Positions 14,921 to 18,163 of a stretch of DNA of 64,000 nucleotides are shown here, piece by piece; position 1 is the first letter of the stretch, and each line of letters begins with the position of its first letter. The notes under the pieces are model-generated. The model was not told the origin of the DNA, did no database searches, and saw only the letters and a list, made by a program, of their open reading frames with translations. Origin of the DNA: Paraburkholderia sp. HP33-1 (lineage in GTDB: Bacteria > Pseudomonadota > Gammaproteobacteria > Burkholderiales > Burkholderiaceae). Location of the stretch: positions 1,860,001-1,924,000 of the forward strand of contig NZ_JAJEJR010000001.1 of the NCBI RefSeq assembly GCF_021390595.1. The letters run 5' to 3'. Both the position numbers and the translations under genes were made by a program.

Positions 14921-16492
14921 CTAGCCAAGAAACAGCCCGTAGACAGGATTTTTCGTCTCTTCCCAGTACGGATAACCGAGTGTCGCGAGAAAACGGTCGA
15001 ACGCATTGTGGTCGCTCTCGGGCACCTGAATCCCAACCAGAATCGAGCTGTAGTCCGCGCCCTGGTTGCGATAGTGGAACAGGCTGATGTTCCAGTTCGG
15101 CGCCATCGACGACAGGAACTTCATCAGCGCGCCCGGACGCTCCGGAAACTCGAAGCGAAACAGACGTTCATCACGCGCGAGCGGCGAGCGGCCCCCGACC
15201 ATGTAGCGGATATGCTGCTTCGACAGTTCGTCGAAGGTCAGGTCGACGGTGGCGAAGCCGTGCGCTTCGAATGCGCCGGCGATCTGCGCCGATTCGCTGC
15301 GATTGCGGATCTGCACGCCGACGAAGATATGCGCCGAGTTCGCGTCGGCAATCCGGTAGTTGAATTCGGTGACGCTGCGCGTGCCGACCAGTTCGCAGAA
15401 GCGCTTGAAGCTGCCGCGCTCTTCGGGAATCGTCACCGCGAATACGGCCTCACGCGCTTCACCCACTTCGGCGCGTTCAGCGACGAAGCGCATGCGGTCG
15501 AAGTTCATGTTCGCGCCCGACGTGATCGCGATCAGCGTCTGATTCTCGATGCCTTCCCGCTCGGCGTACTGCTTGGCGCCGGCCACCGCGAGCGAGCCTG
15601 CCGGTTCGAGCACGCTGCGCGTGTCCTGGAACACGTCCTTGATCGCGGCGCACAGGGCGTCCGTATTCACGAGCAGCACTTCGTCGAGATATTCGCTGCA
15701 CAGGCGGAAGGTTTCTTCGCCCACGAGTTTCACCGCGGTGCCGTCGGAGAACAGGCCCACTTCGTTCAGCGTCACGCGCTCGCCTGCCTTCAGCGATGCC
15801 GCCATCGCACACGAGTCATCGGTCTGCACGCCGATCACCTTGATCTCGGGGCGCACCGATTTCACGTACGCAGCCACACCGGCCGCGAGACCCCCGCCGC
15901 CGATCGGCACGAAGATCGCGTGAATCGGGCCCTGGTGCTGGCTGAGGATTTCCATCGCCACCGTGCCCTGGCCGGCGATCACGTAGGGATCATCAAACGG
16001 ATGCACGAAGGTCAGGCCGCGTTCTTCCTGCAGCTTGACCGCGTGGCCATAGGCATCGCTATACGACTCACCGAACTGCACGACCTCGACGGTCGGGCCG
16101 CCGTGCGTGCGGATCGCATCGACCTTGAGCTGCGGCGTCGTCACCGGCACGACGATGATCGCCTTCACGCCCATGCGTGCCGCCGACAACGCCACACCCT
16201 GCGCATGATTGCCCGCCGACGCGGTGATCACGCCGCGTCCGAGCGCCTCGGCCGGAATATGCGCCATCTTGTTGTACGCGCCGCGCAGCTTGAACGAGAA
16301 CACCGGCTGGTTGTCCTCGCGCTTCAGATAGACCGGATTGCGCAGCCGCGCCGACAGGTTCGGCGCGCGTTCGAGTTCGGTCTCGCGCGCCACGTCGTAG
16401 ACGCGCGCGGTCAGGGTCTTTTTCAGGTAGTCGTGGGACGGCGCGATGCGCCCGGCCGCTGCGGCGGCCTGTTCGAGTTCGGTTAACAGCAC
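14921..16492 (-). CDS. ilvA: Biosynthetic threonine ammonia-lyase IlvA
   Basis: 523 residues, the long allosteric form. The catalytic PLP domain spans about residues 20-335, with the PLP lysine Lys68 in SFKLRGAYNKM and the phosphate-binding loop GGGGLA. Two C-terminal ACT-like regulatory domains (about 345-515) allow isoleucine feedback inhibition. It deaminates threonine to 2-oxobutanoate, the committed step of isoleucine synthesis, in the cytoplasm. The start is GTG at 16492, with AGGAG nine bases upstream; no ATG gives a comparable fit. Upstream lie an Ile-rich leader peptide and a terminator, so expression is very likely controlled by transcription attenuation. Confidence 0.97.
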   Translation of the reverse strand: MLLTELEQAAAAAGRIAPSHDYLKKTLTARVYDVARETELERAPNLSARLRNPVYLKREDNQPVFSFKLRGAYNKMAHIPAEALGRGVITASAGNHAQGVALSAARMGVKAIIVVPVTTPQLKVDAIRTHGGPTVEVVQFGESYSDAYGHAVKLQEERGLTFVHPFDDPYVIAGQGTVAMEILSQHQGPIHAIFVPIGGGGLAAGVAAYVKSVRPEIKVIGVQTDDSCAMAASLKAGERVTLNEVGLFSDGTAVKLVGEETFRLCSEYLDEVLLVNTDALCAAIKDVFQDTRSVLEPAGSLAVAGAKQYAEREGIENQTLIAITSGANMNFDRMRFVAERAEVGEAREAVFAVTIPEERGSFKRFCELVGTRSVTEFNYRIADANSAHIFVGVQIRNRSESAQIAGAFEAHGFATVDLTFDELSKQHIRYMVGGRSPLARDERLFRFEFPERPGALMKFLSSMAPNWNISLFHYRNQGADYSSILVGIQVPESDHNAFDRFLATLGYPYWEETKNPVYGLFLG

Positions 16493-16603
16493 GGCAAGCT
16501 CCTGGGTGGCAACATTCGATGCAGCAACGAGTCAACGGCGATCGATCTCGATCGCAGCCTGTTCGCCAGGAGGCAGGTAAAGAATGAACCTGAAAGCGGA
16601 CAT

Positions 16604-16630
16604 AAAAAAACCCGCCTCGTTTGGCGGGTT
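16604..16630 (-). terminator. Attenuator terminator in the ilvA leader
   Basis: On the minus strand AACCCGCC, loop AAACGA and GGCGGGTT form an 8-bp stem directly followed by a T-run (A-run 16604-16608 on the plus strand). It lies 26 bases after the stop of the leader peptide and 111 bases before the ilvA start. No gene ends just upstream apart from the leader peptide, so it is best explained as the attenuator. Confidence 0.88.
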
Positions 16631-16694
16631 ATGTGTCACTGCAAGTCGACGCGCGCTAACCCACCATTCGATGAATGATGCTAATAATCAGCGC
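16623..16694 (-). promoter_or_regulatory. Alternative RNA structures of the ilvA attenuator (segments 1:2 and 2:3)
   Basis: Segment 1, GCGCTGA (16688-16694), lies within leader codons 9-11. Segment 2 overlaps the end of the leader and its stop codon (16653-16665). Segment 3 is the terminator 5' arm (16623-16631). Segment 1 can pair with TTAGCGC in segment 2 (7 bp, one G-U). Segment 2 as GGTGGGTTA can pair with TAACCCGCC of segment 3 (9 bp, one G-U), which would block the terminator. A ribosome stalled on the Ile codons covers segment 1 and favours the antiterminator. The pairings are read from sequence; the mechanism follows the classical his/trp/ilv attenuation model. Confidence 0.75.
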
Positions 16695-16718
16695 AATACG
16701 GATGTCGAGGCAGTTCAT
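16656..16718 (-). CDS. Isoleucine-rich leader peptide of ilvA (20 residues)
   Basis: ATG at 16718 to TAG at 16656 encodes a 20-residue peptide beginning MNCLDIRIALIISIIH. Six of twenty codons are Ile (positions 6, 8, 11, 12, 14, 15), including two adjacent pairs, with two Leu and one Val. The peptide ends 26 bases before a perfect intrinsic terminator, and ilvA is the next gene. The Shine-Dalgarno is weak (GAAGA about 10 bases upstream). The peptide probably has no role beyond sensing charged tRNA-Ile through ribosome stalling. Confidence 0.8.
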   Translation of the reverse strand: MNCLDIRIALIISIIHRMVG

Positions 16719-16850
16719 GTCGGCGATCTTCGTCGAGTTGGCGGGCTTTGTCAATCCCTGCGGACCATCGTCAATATCTTGTCGACCACTGGCCCGCCGA
16801 CATTAATCAGTCTTCCTAAAACATTTCGGCCGCAACGGCCCAACGAATAA

Positions 16851-16876
16851 CGGGGCGCGCCGGCAAGCGCGCCCCG
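16851..16876 (-). terminator. GC-rich hairpin downstream of acvB
   Basis: A 10-bp perfect stem (CGGGGCGCGC at 16851-16860, complement at 16867-16876) with a 6-base loop, 21 bases beyond the acvB stop. There is no T-run on the minus strand, so it is a weak intrinsic terminator or an RNA 3' end-protecting structure. It separates the mprF-acvB transcript from the ilvA leader. Confidence 0.55.
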
Positions 16877-16897
16877 CTGATACGACCAACGCCGCGA

Positions 16898-18163
16898 TCA
16901 ATCGCGCACGCCGCTCTGCTTTTTGAACGCCACGAGAATGCGCTGCTCCAGCGCGTTGTAATCGCGGCCAAAGTGATGATCACCGGAGGTGCGGATCACT
17001 TCGACACCGGTCTTGTCGAGCGTCGGACACAGCGTGTCGGTTTCGCTCGCGCCATAGAAACATTGGACGATCGACGGCGGCACATGCGTCAACTCGGGCC
17101 GCACGTTCAGCGCCTTGTCGCTCGCGGGCATGCCGAGCCAGCCGCCGACCCGGATCTGGAAATCGGCGTCGGGCGCGAAGCCGAGCAGCGAAATCAGCGA
17201 CACCTTATCGCGCTGCGCCTGCGGCAGACGGTTGTACGCGAAAGGCATCACGTCGGCGCCGAACGAATAGCCGATCAGCGCGACGTGCTGCGCGTGCCAG
17301 CGCGCACTATAGGTTTGCATCACGCGCGCGAGATCGCGGCTCGTTTGCGCGGGCGGCTTCTCGCTCCAGAAATAACGCAGGCTGTCCAGGCCGACCACCG
17401 ACACGCCGTCTTTCTGCAACGCCAGCGCGATCGTCTTGTCGAGGTCGCGCCAGCCGCCATCGCCGGAAATCACGATCGCCATCATGCCGTTCGGATGCGC
17501 AACCGGCAATTCGATCAGCGGCAAGTCGGACACGTCGTCGTCGCTCGTCGATACCGACTGCAGATGCGGCGTCAGCAACCCGACCAGACGCGCGCGATCG
17601 GCATTGCCCGTGCCCGCCTTTTCGACGAAGCCAGGCACCTTGTCGCGAATCACGGTCGGATCAGGCGAACACGGCTCAAAGCGCGGGTCGAGTGTGGGCT
17701 CGGCATCCACCGACACCGCGCCCGCAACCGTATTGGACGGCGCCTGCTCGAGCACGTGCATCGCGAGCGTCGCGCCCTGCCCCGTACCCGCGACGATCGG
17801 CGCGAAATAGTTGCTCGACTGCGATTGCCGTTCGAGCTGATGGCTCAGCGCTTCGGCATCGCCCACCAGCTTATGGCAGGTTTCCTTCTGGGCAGCAAGG
17901 TTGGCTGCGTAGCGTGCGGTATCGACGCCGACGGTCAACGCGCCCGCTTTCGCGAGCGCATCGGCGCTCTGCTGATCGGCCGCACTCCAGCCGCTCGCCT
18001 GCGAATACAGCACGACGAAGCCGCGCAGCGGCCCCTCGGGTTGCGTGACGCGAACGTCGCCAAAGCGGCCGCCAGGCACGGTGGTGGTGGCCGCGTGCGC
18101 GAGCGCGCCGCAGCTCAGAACGCTCGCCGCGACGGCGAGCTGGAACAACGGATGCAATTTCAT
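16898..18163 (-). CDS. acvB: AcvB/VirJ-family periplasmic protein, lysyl-phosphatidylglycerol hydrolase
   Basis: 421 residues. A signal peptide covers residues 1-24 (ending GALAHA). Two alpha/beta-hydrolase-like halves follow; the C-terminal VirJ domain has ISGDGGWRDLD and the nucleophile elbow GYSFGAD, with a late DHHFG that could carry the catalytic His. Agrobacterium AcvB hydrolyses the lysyl-phosphatidylglycerol made by LpiA/MprF and is needed for virulence and acid tolerance. The ATG overlaps the mprF stop by four bases (ATGA), so synthesis of the lipid and its hydrolase are coupled in one operon, as in rhizobia. The activity is inferred from the family. Confidence 0.88.
   Translation of the reverse strand: MKLHPLFQLAVAASVLSCGALAHAATTTVPGGRFGDVRVTQPEGPLRGFVVLYSQASGWSAADQQSADALAKAGALTVGVDTARYAANLAAQKETCHKLVGDAEALSHQLERQSQSSNYFAPIVAGTGQGATLAMHVLEQAPSNTVAGAVSVDAEPTLDPRFEPCSPDPTVIRDKVPGFVEKAGTGNADRARLVGLLTPHLQSVSTSDDDVSDLPLIELPVAHPNGMMAIVISGDGGWRDLDKTIALALQKDGVSVVGLDSLRYFWSEKPPAQTSRDLARVMQTYSARWHAQHVALIGYSFGADVMPFAYNRLPQAQRDKVSLISLLGFAPDADFQIRVGGWLGMPASDKALNVRPELTHVPPSIVQCFYGASETDTLCPTLDKTGVEVIRTSGDHHFGRDYNALEQRILVAFKKQSGVRD

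Follow-up and report, generated by a model that had tools for sequence, protein, structure and literature searches.

The question raised by this locus is whether a stand-alone ilvA gene of Paraburkholderia sp. HP33-1, lying on the minus strand of the 64,000-nucleotide stretch of DNA analysed here (the window), is preceded by a genuine transcription attenuator, and why such an attenuator would be found on one of two almost identical copies of the gene. The initial annotation had read the region as an isoleucine leader with terminator and antiterminator, and all the elements it named were found at their places on the minus strand. The leader peptide frame MNCLDIRIALIISIIHRMVG (16656..16718), recognized from the window sequence, its relatives and a chance test, starts with an ATG at 16718 and comprises 20 codons followed by a TAG ending at 16656; just as described, it holds six Ile codons with two adjacent pairs, ATT ATT and then ATC ATT. 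The terminator hairpin, AACCCGCC/GGCGGGTT (16630-16609), detected by a hairpin scan and in the sequence itself, has 8 bp and is followed by seven T ending at 16604, again in agreement with the annotation; its 3′ arm (16616-16609) and the T run (16610-16604) constitute segment 4 (16604..16616). Segment 2, GGTGGGTTA (16657..16665), is the antiterminator 5′ arm and overlaps the leader stop codon, and segment 3, TAACCCGCC (16623..16631), is at once the antiterminator 3′ arm and the terminator 5′ arm. Mutually exclusive pairings had been claimed for these parts; a 9-bp antiterminator with one G-U pair is indeed possible between 16665-16657 and 16631-16623, but no covariation was detected for its arms. 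Hairpin 1:2 (16663..16679), identified by covariation and swap tests, pairs ATCATTC (16679-16673) with GAATGGT (16669-16663).

Downstream of the terminator, as annotated, lies this second copy of ilvA (14921..16492, minus strand), starting with a GTG at 16492. Its 523-aa product is recognized as a threonine ammonia-lyase by NF009130 (964.7 bits; cut-off 801), and Pfam recognizes PALP and two Thr_dehydrat_C stretches. When Ile-rich frames were defined by six Ile, or by five including an adjacent pair, the attenuator leader was the sole one among the window's 353 ATG frames with 12-30 codons, and 60 first-order Markov copies of the window yielded 0.07 such frames per copy, with 4 of the 60 copies containing one. 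Directly behind ilvA on the same strand, a frame resembling 4-hydroxybenzoate 3-monooxygenase (NF006091, 13478-14920) might be co-transcribed with it. Upstream of the attenuator, also on the same strand, a 421-aa protein that matches no NCBIfam model (16898-18163) and MprF (NF033480, 18160-20865) were observed.

The element is already known under another description. Positions 16607..16691 (minus strand) match Rfam RF00624, “Pseudomonas sRNA P9”, scoring 52.2 bits where the gathering score is 43, with E 3.1e-8 over the whole window. It is the sole Rfam family reaching its cut-off in the whole window, where no known riboswitch aptamer or T-box was matched. Rfam types RF00624 as a gene and not as a cis-regulatory element, yet its consensus corresponds to the final part of an Ile-rich leader (ATT ATT ATT ACC GCC ATT ... 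GGT TAG) followed by the terminator, and “P9” is thus best read, from its sequence, as a leader-peptide attenuator. The initial annotation had been uncertain whether a stand-alone ilvA of Burkholderiales carries an attenuator. It very probably does, with the correction that the attenuator belongs to an existing Rfam family and precedes one of two near-identical ilvA copies. Livny and others (2006) reportedly gave the original report of P9, and Vitreschak and others (2004) are said to have surveyed attenuators; either may already contain part of these findings. No paper was found in a literature search for RF00624 or the P9 sRNA, and titles and abstract openings, in a search that mostly lay outside subscription literature, revealed no ilvA attenuator in Pseudomonas or Burkholderia. 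The main text of PMC2965389 contains neither isoleucine nor ilv, PMC2659441 no ilvA, and PMC3460626 neither ilvA nor a leader peptide.

Elements of the P9 kind were found well beyond Pseudomonas, unlike what the name of the family implies. In the family sample, RF00624 matched 34 of 150 genomes including our own, 30 of them above the cut-off, and the remaining 116 had no match; 35 of the 37 rows were judged credible, 26 of them with ilvA downstream and 9 with an AAA_33-type kinase. In the class sample, 15 of 274 genomes matched, with 3 over the cut-off. A covariance model built in this analysis from P9 elements (R1) gave 12 rows in 11 of 369 genomes of the class sample, 7 of them credible by eye, and 31 rows in 29 of 299 genomes of the phylum sample, comprising 21 P9-kind elements, 5 threonine-type leaders and 5 rejected rows. 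A DNA pattern scan of named genomes added at least 120 stretches. Genera among the matches listed include Pseudomonas, Paraburkholderia, Burkholderia, Caballeronia, Trinickia, Cupriavidus, Ralstonia, Pandoraea, Achromobacter, Variovorax, Delftia, Dyella, Serratia, Methylobacter, Sulfuriferula and Geomesophilobacter, besides others. Chance or other matches were set aside: L243-L247 in the R1 class sample, L295, L300-L302 and L305 in the R1 phylum sample, the reverse-strand rows of the R1 searches and the reverse-strand row of genome G420. The match in genome G340 (L102) was likewise rejected; it scores 32 bits, is without the Ile pair and has an acetyltransferase-like frame downstream.

A regular expression run over the collected loci gave 173 elements, 144 of them distinct, and 142 of these had enough upstream sequence for a leader survey (L159 and L212 were dropped for lacking it). 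An in-frame ATG was present in 142/142, and the leader was 18-22 aa long in 139/142; the search itself requires an in-frame stop. Among 51 cluster representatives, leaders contain 2-6 Ile codons with a mean of 3.9, two codons being fixed by the search. Excluding this fixed pair, ATT makes up 53 of 99 leader Ile codons versus 105 of 590 in the downstream frames. The leaders of L286 and L287 contain a single Ile codon. The check on relatives suggested by the initial annotation bore out the leader frame with its Ile codons as well as compensating changes in hairpin 1:2, and no both-side change was found in the 2:3 pairing.

The leader is preceded by a perfect -35 hexamer, TTGACA (16749..16754, minus strand), recognized from the sequence and the relatives, whose 5′ end lies 36 nt before the leader ATG. 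The putative -10, GAAGAT (16726..16731, minus strand), placed from spacing 17 nt downstream of the -35 and 7 nt upstream of the ATG, is poor (3/6), and a consensus promoter scan of this region of the window found no promoter. In relatives, the best TTGACA match within 30-42 nt before the ATG falls at 35-37 nt in 120 of 142, and among the 51 representatives there are 37 matches of at least 5/6 at 35-37 nt, whereas other offsets average 0.18 each; both counts are favoured by the choice, in the 31 of 142 leaders with several in-frame ATGs, of the ATG having the best -35. The leader ATG also seems devoid of a Shine-Dalgarno sequence, with an anti-Shine-Dalgarno energy of -1.30 kcal/mol compared with -2.68 at random positions and -6.97 at the downstream gene start, and only 3 of 51 leaders reach -5 kcal/mol. 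From this absence and the promoter distance, a leaderless leader mRNA is predicted, with transcription starting at about 16719-16718. Precedents for such a start do exist, as the transcript of Sinorhizobium meliloti trpL is described as starting with the leader ATG (PMC7298713, accessible part), and the start codon of the Corynebacterium glutamicum ilvBNC leader as lying one nucleotide from the transcription start (PMC11857589, accessible part). RF00624 is not mentioned in the main text, as far as available, of a Burkholderia cenocepacia transcription start-site paper.

Covariation was inspected in 50 representatives of 80% clusters, with L135 left out as its terminator arm is missing near a contig end. 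Both-side changes occur in 5 of the 9 pairs of hairpin 1:2, and hairpin 1:2 together with the terminator shows 36 both-side-change cells against 7.8 in shuffles, none of 500 shuffles being as high; the number of pairs with both-side changes was equalled by 16 of the 500. In swap tests, hairpin 1:2 gave z -7.3 over 51 clusters and -6.2 within gene type over 50 clusters, with 0/2000 permutations in each. ATCATTC:GAATGGT is taken as the true 1:2 hairpin on account of its both-side changes, a choice that sequence comparison supports over the outer stem of the earlier annotation, GCGCTGA:TTAGCGC. The latter can form in the window and is weak in the 50 relatives (68.6% of cells pair), and a control slid by two columns covaries more (0.130 vs 0.105).

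The terminator pairs in 96.5% of cells and the antiterminator 2:3 in 85.3% (50 relatives), the latter with no both-side change; in the swap test over 51 clusters, antiterminator arms paired no better with their own partners than with swapped ones (z 0.1). This invariance is partly a matter of construction, since the DNA pattern of the genome scan (ATTATT, GGYGGGDTAGC, ACCCGCC) fixed both arms in most rows. The elements found by model R1 were therefore inspected instead, that is 23 elements (25 rows minus two reverse-strand rows), although the model itself was built from pattern hits. By eye, GGYGGG is kept in segment 2 of 22 of the 23, and in three distant elements the terminator CCCACC/GGTGGG replaces CCCGCC/GGCGGG, a change of a G-C pair to A-U after which segment 2 can still pair. 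As far as alignments tell, the antiterminator can form in nearly all relatives, but its arms vary too little for covariation to show.

Beyond the terminator, a segment resembling CCGTCTCCTGGG lies behind the T run in most relatives (by eye). Two stretches of this segment 5 can be distinguished in the window (both minus strand), from swap tests over relatives and from folding of the window itself. Segment 5a, GTCCGCTTTC (16592..16601), can pair with GAGGCGG of the terminator, more weakly than in relatives, and segment 5b, GCCTCCTGG (16566..16574), can form 7 bp (CTCCTGG:CCAGGAG) with segment 6, the ilvA Shine-Dalgarno CCCAGGAG (16499..16506, minus strand). Swap tests of the terminator loop and arm with segment 5 (4:5) gave z -8.5 over 51 clusters and -7.2 within gene type (50 clusters), and those of segment 5 with the Shine-Dalgarno (5:6) gave -5.4 and -6.0, with 0/2000 permutations each. 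Controls gave -1.4, +1.5 and +2.2 (51 clusters), and within gene type -0.6, +1.9, +1.5, -1.1 and -2.3 (50 clusters), the last being the 1:5 control, reached by 29 of 2000 permutations. L135 was out of the within-gene-type swap and of folding and L154, whose start was badly chosen, out of folding; both are in the 51-cluster test. As segment 5 lies beyond the T run, it should play no part in termination, and its pairing with the Shine-Dalgarno suggests a translational lock on the read-through RNA.

Folding was used to inspect this further in 43 representatives, a set that leaves out six long-spaced elements, among them the window. With the terminator available, 6.9 pairs of 5:6 were predicted. 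Without segment 3, 4:5 rose from 1.0 to 6.0 pairs and 5:6 fell to 5.0, with a loss of at least two pairs in 18 of 43 representatives and a gain in 1. The unpaired Shine-Dalgarno fraction increased from 0.24 to 0.31 without segment 3 (49 representatives, Wilcoxon p 0.005), up by more than 0.1 in 13 of 49 and down in 3; this gain of 0.070 is hardly above the 0.056 (sd 0.012) of a control with swapped terminator blocks. In the window, folded after segment 3, 4:5 engages 16601-16592 and 5:6 a different stretch, 16574-16566; the two are not mutually exclusive, and release of the Shine-Dalgarno is therefore least certain there. The 5:6 pairing is well supported by these comparisons and a second, translational lock on ilvA is likely, while Shine-Dalgarno release by 4:5 is a proposal that folding partly bears out and suggests least in the window.

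The other ilvA of this genome (G000:C1:464177-465703) is 97.9% identical over 1500 bp to window positions 14939-16438, the similarity beginning 54 bp inside the window coding frame, and the comparison found no similar flank. Three more genomes of the genus have ilvA pairs with 98.1-99.0% identity over 1507-1517 bp. Such identities in four genomes look like the outcome of repeated gene conversion keeping the copies alike. With R1, the attenuator was found at 13 of 52 ilvA loci, each from a two-copy genome, and at 0 of 39 others; the other copy in our own genome has none. Four sampled genomes of the genus lacking RF00624 have a single ilvA each. In several genus genomes with RF00624 the element lies near a contig end, as would be expected if near-identical repeats break assemblies. 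The two-copy rule is not strict, as P. bohemica (G522) and B. seminalis (G541) each yielded a single ilvA, at a locus with the element. Two IlvA paralogs, PA0331 and PA1326, are also described in Pseudomonas aeruginosa (PMC9239102, accessible part).

Of the 90 ilvA genes with an attenuator, 43 are complete and 47 run off the end of the locus. The complete ones comprise 23 of full length, 19 ending at residue 344-350 and one (L123) at 252; in other words, the regulatory C-terminus is missing in 20 of 43. The sequence downstream of these 20 genes showed no remnant of the regulatory part, and three shortened IlvA tested by domain search gave PALP only. Attenuated IlvA did not form one clade in the protein tree, in which eight rows labelled HK carry the attenuator, making the label counts unusable.

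Not all elements precede ilvA. A frame of at least 60 aa starts within 350 nt downstream in 131 of 144 elements (same strand only inspected), distributed over an IlvA cluster (86), AAA_33 kinases (30), SnoaL-like proteins (7) and 8 others, the latter being one cluster of four and four singles, of which several are the same genes in another frame. By tblastn, ilvA follows 90 of 140 elements and is the commonest target. Pfam and NCBIfam searches of the downstream proteins returned AAA_33 (PF13671) and SnoaL_3/TIGR02246, a small P-loop protein shows below-cut-off likeness to DNA topology modulation protein, and the distant element L241 precedes a GNAT-like protein (named by eye). In the family sample, genomes G293 and G289 each have one element before ilvA and one before a kinase. 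PADLOC gave no match for the kinase or the SnoaL-like protein and the PDB none for the kinase; the SnoaL-like protein resembles yybH, 2gxf.

Some further observations were made at these loci. Six elements (L288, L289, L294, L298, L304 and L248) form a subfamily before the small P-loop protein, with leaders that end in IITIIP, RIIIIP or RIIIIL and a stop inside hairpin 1:2. In Delftia, the P9-kinase element is preceded, at a distance of about 500 bases, by a fluoride riboswitch (L128:3856-3919). In L122, L191, L194 and other Pseudomonas ilvA loci, a second short MI-frame follows the attenuator and by eye seems to overlap the ilvA start (ACGCGATGA), an overlap that would couple its translation to that of ilvA.

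Taken as a whole, the element is very probably a ribosome-controlled transcription attenuator before the extra ilvA, with isoleucine as its presumed signal. The leader frame, hairpin 1:2, the terminator, the 5:6 and 4:5 complementarities, the missing leader Shine-Dalgarno and the promoter spacing are supported by sequence comparison. The transcription start, the isoleucine signal, the order of events and the translational lock are what we infer, as follows. Transcription would start at or beside the leader ATG, giving a leaderless mRNA. When charged tRNA-Ile is plentiful, the ribosome would get to the stop codon inside segment 2, leaving segment 3 free to form the terminator with segment 4; transcription would then stop, and the terminated product would be a short RNA corresponding to P9. 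When charged tRNA-Ile is scarce, the ribosome would stall on the Ile codons, at ATT ATT and then ATC ATT, covering the 5′ arm of hairpin 1:2, so that segment 2 would be free to pair with segment 3, no terminator would form and ilvA would be transcribed. Segment 5 could meanwhile sequester the Shine-Dalgarno (segment 6), making stray read-through RNA poorly translated, and in many relatives the ON state would release segment 4, which could pair with segment 5 and thereby free the Shine-Dalgarno.

Other explanations have to be weighed against this attenuator, the more so as many elements precede genes without a known isoleucine link. That terminators between genes are common lends something to the plainest of them, a constitutive terminator beside a fortuitous short frame with no regulation at all. 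This is hardly credible, as frames like that of the window are rare by chance (0.07 per Markov copy), hairpin 1:2 covaries, 5:6 coevolves, and the element is retained across genera and gene types. P9 could also be a trans-acting small RNA with its own targets, ending at the terminator and only positionally linked to ilvA, which would agree with the Rfam type; in addition, termination would yield such an RNA, and rnTrpL, the attenuator RNA of S. meliloti, is described as acting in trans (PMC7298713, accessible part). An independent sRNA would, however, have no need for a segment past its terminator that coevolves with the Shine-Dalgarno of the gene. Together with the in-frame leader ATG in 142/142 without a Shine-Dalgarno at a preferred promoter distance, the antiterminator arms that are kept, and the same-strand frame of at least 60 aa within 350 nt of 131/144 elements (that strand only inspected), this makes such a role very improbable.

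A less remote rival, though still an unlikely one, is that the leader senses slowed translation or a drug in general, and not isoleucine, ilvA being one passenger among stress genes. Indeed, the module is also found before AAA_33 kinases, SnoaL-like, small P-loop and GNAT-like genes, the Ile codons are thinner in some distant members, and the leader peptide PA5471.1, involved in MexXY control in P. aeruginosa, is proposed to work in this manner (PMC12057347, accessible part). On the other hand, 2-6 Ile codons with an enrichment of ATT are present in 51 representatives, and ilvA, encoding the committing enzyme of isoleucine synthesis, is the commonest target (90/140 elements) and lies behind 26 of the 35 credible elements of the family sample. 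The element of the window is therefore best read as a conserved, isoleucine-responsive leader-peptide attenuator on an extra ilvA, drawn from a P9 module that is shared with other genes.

Several known systems resemble this attenuator in part. In Escherichia coli, the ilvGMEDA and ilvBN attenuators likewise combine a branched-chain leader peptide with alternative hairpins; there, ilvA forms part of the operon and a ribosome binding site serves the leader, whereas the window carries an extra, stand-alone ilvA. The RF00624 consensus equals the window element in Ile codons, hairpin, stop and terminator and differs in being filed as an sRNA gene, while here a predicted leaderless leader-peptide attenuator with antiterminator and Shine-Dalgarno lock is proposed. 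The threonine operon leader (RF00506) is akin to the window element in having a leader rich in Thr and Ile codons and a terminator. The window element has Ile rather than Thr codons, P9 precedes ilvA copies, kinases and others, and a search of window 16450-16900 up to E 1 gave four matches, none of them to RF00506 (gathering score 55 bits). Threonine-type leaders in front of aspartokinase-type genes (L296, L297, L299, L303 and L306; thrA by eye) are picked up by R1 as well; of these, L297 and L303 pass RF00506, and L299 and L306 resemble P9 in having TTGAC some 36 nt ahead of the leader ATG.

A precedent for the re-reading itself is the ilvB-II motif, first described as an ncRNA and later recognized as a uORF that acts by attenuation (PMC10272879, accessible part). 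In C. glutamicum ilvBNC, a branched-chain leader peptide acts with a three-hairpin attenuator (PMC11857589, accessible part). The latter belongs to another phylum and precedes another gene, uses Ile, Val and Leu codons, and has no Shine-Dalgarno lock described in the available text. S. meliloti trpL (rnTrpL, peTrpL) resembles P9 in its transcript starting from the leader ATG and in a terminated RNA that is an sRNA (PMC7298713, accessible part), and differs from the window in its Trp codons and its target trpE(G); against Rfam Trp_leader, the window scores 25.1 bits (cut-off 41). The PA5471.1 leader of armZ is, like P9, a proposed leader-peptide attenuator of a stress gene, and unlike it responds to ribosome-targeting drugs, with no Ile-codon array described in the accessible text (PMC12057347).

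Perhaps P9 is a portable module, made of a promoter, a leaderless Ile-codon frame, an attenuator and a Shine-Dalgarno lock with five rival helices (1:2, 2:3, 3:4, 4:5 and 5:6), that now stands before unrelated genes and defines a proteobacterial regulon for tRNA-Ile charging; we put this forward tentatively, giving it somewhat less than an even chance. If this is true, the regulon would include kinases, SnoaL-like, GNAT-like and P-loop proteins along with extra, often feedback-free, ilvA copies, and transcription and translation control would be coupled in one attenuator. The presence of P9 before kinases, SnoaL-like proteins and others would then possibly tie their functions to isoleucyl-tRNA shortage. 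The coevolving segment between terminator and Shine-Dalgarno would provide a case of linked transcription and translation control, and an RNA family filed as an sRNA gene would acquire the cis-regulatory role proposed here. Moreover, isoleucine feedback is suggested to have moved from the enzyme to the RNA, as 20 of 43 complete ilvA genes are without the regulatory C-terminus and have kept the attenuator. For Paraburkholderia sp. HP33-1, this may give a reason for having two near-identical ilvA genes, namely the same protein under different control.
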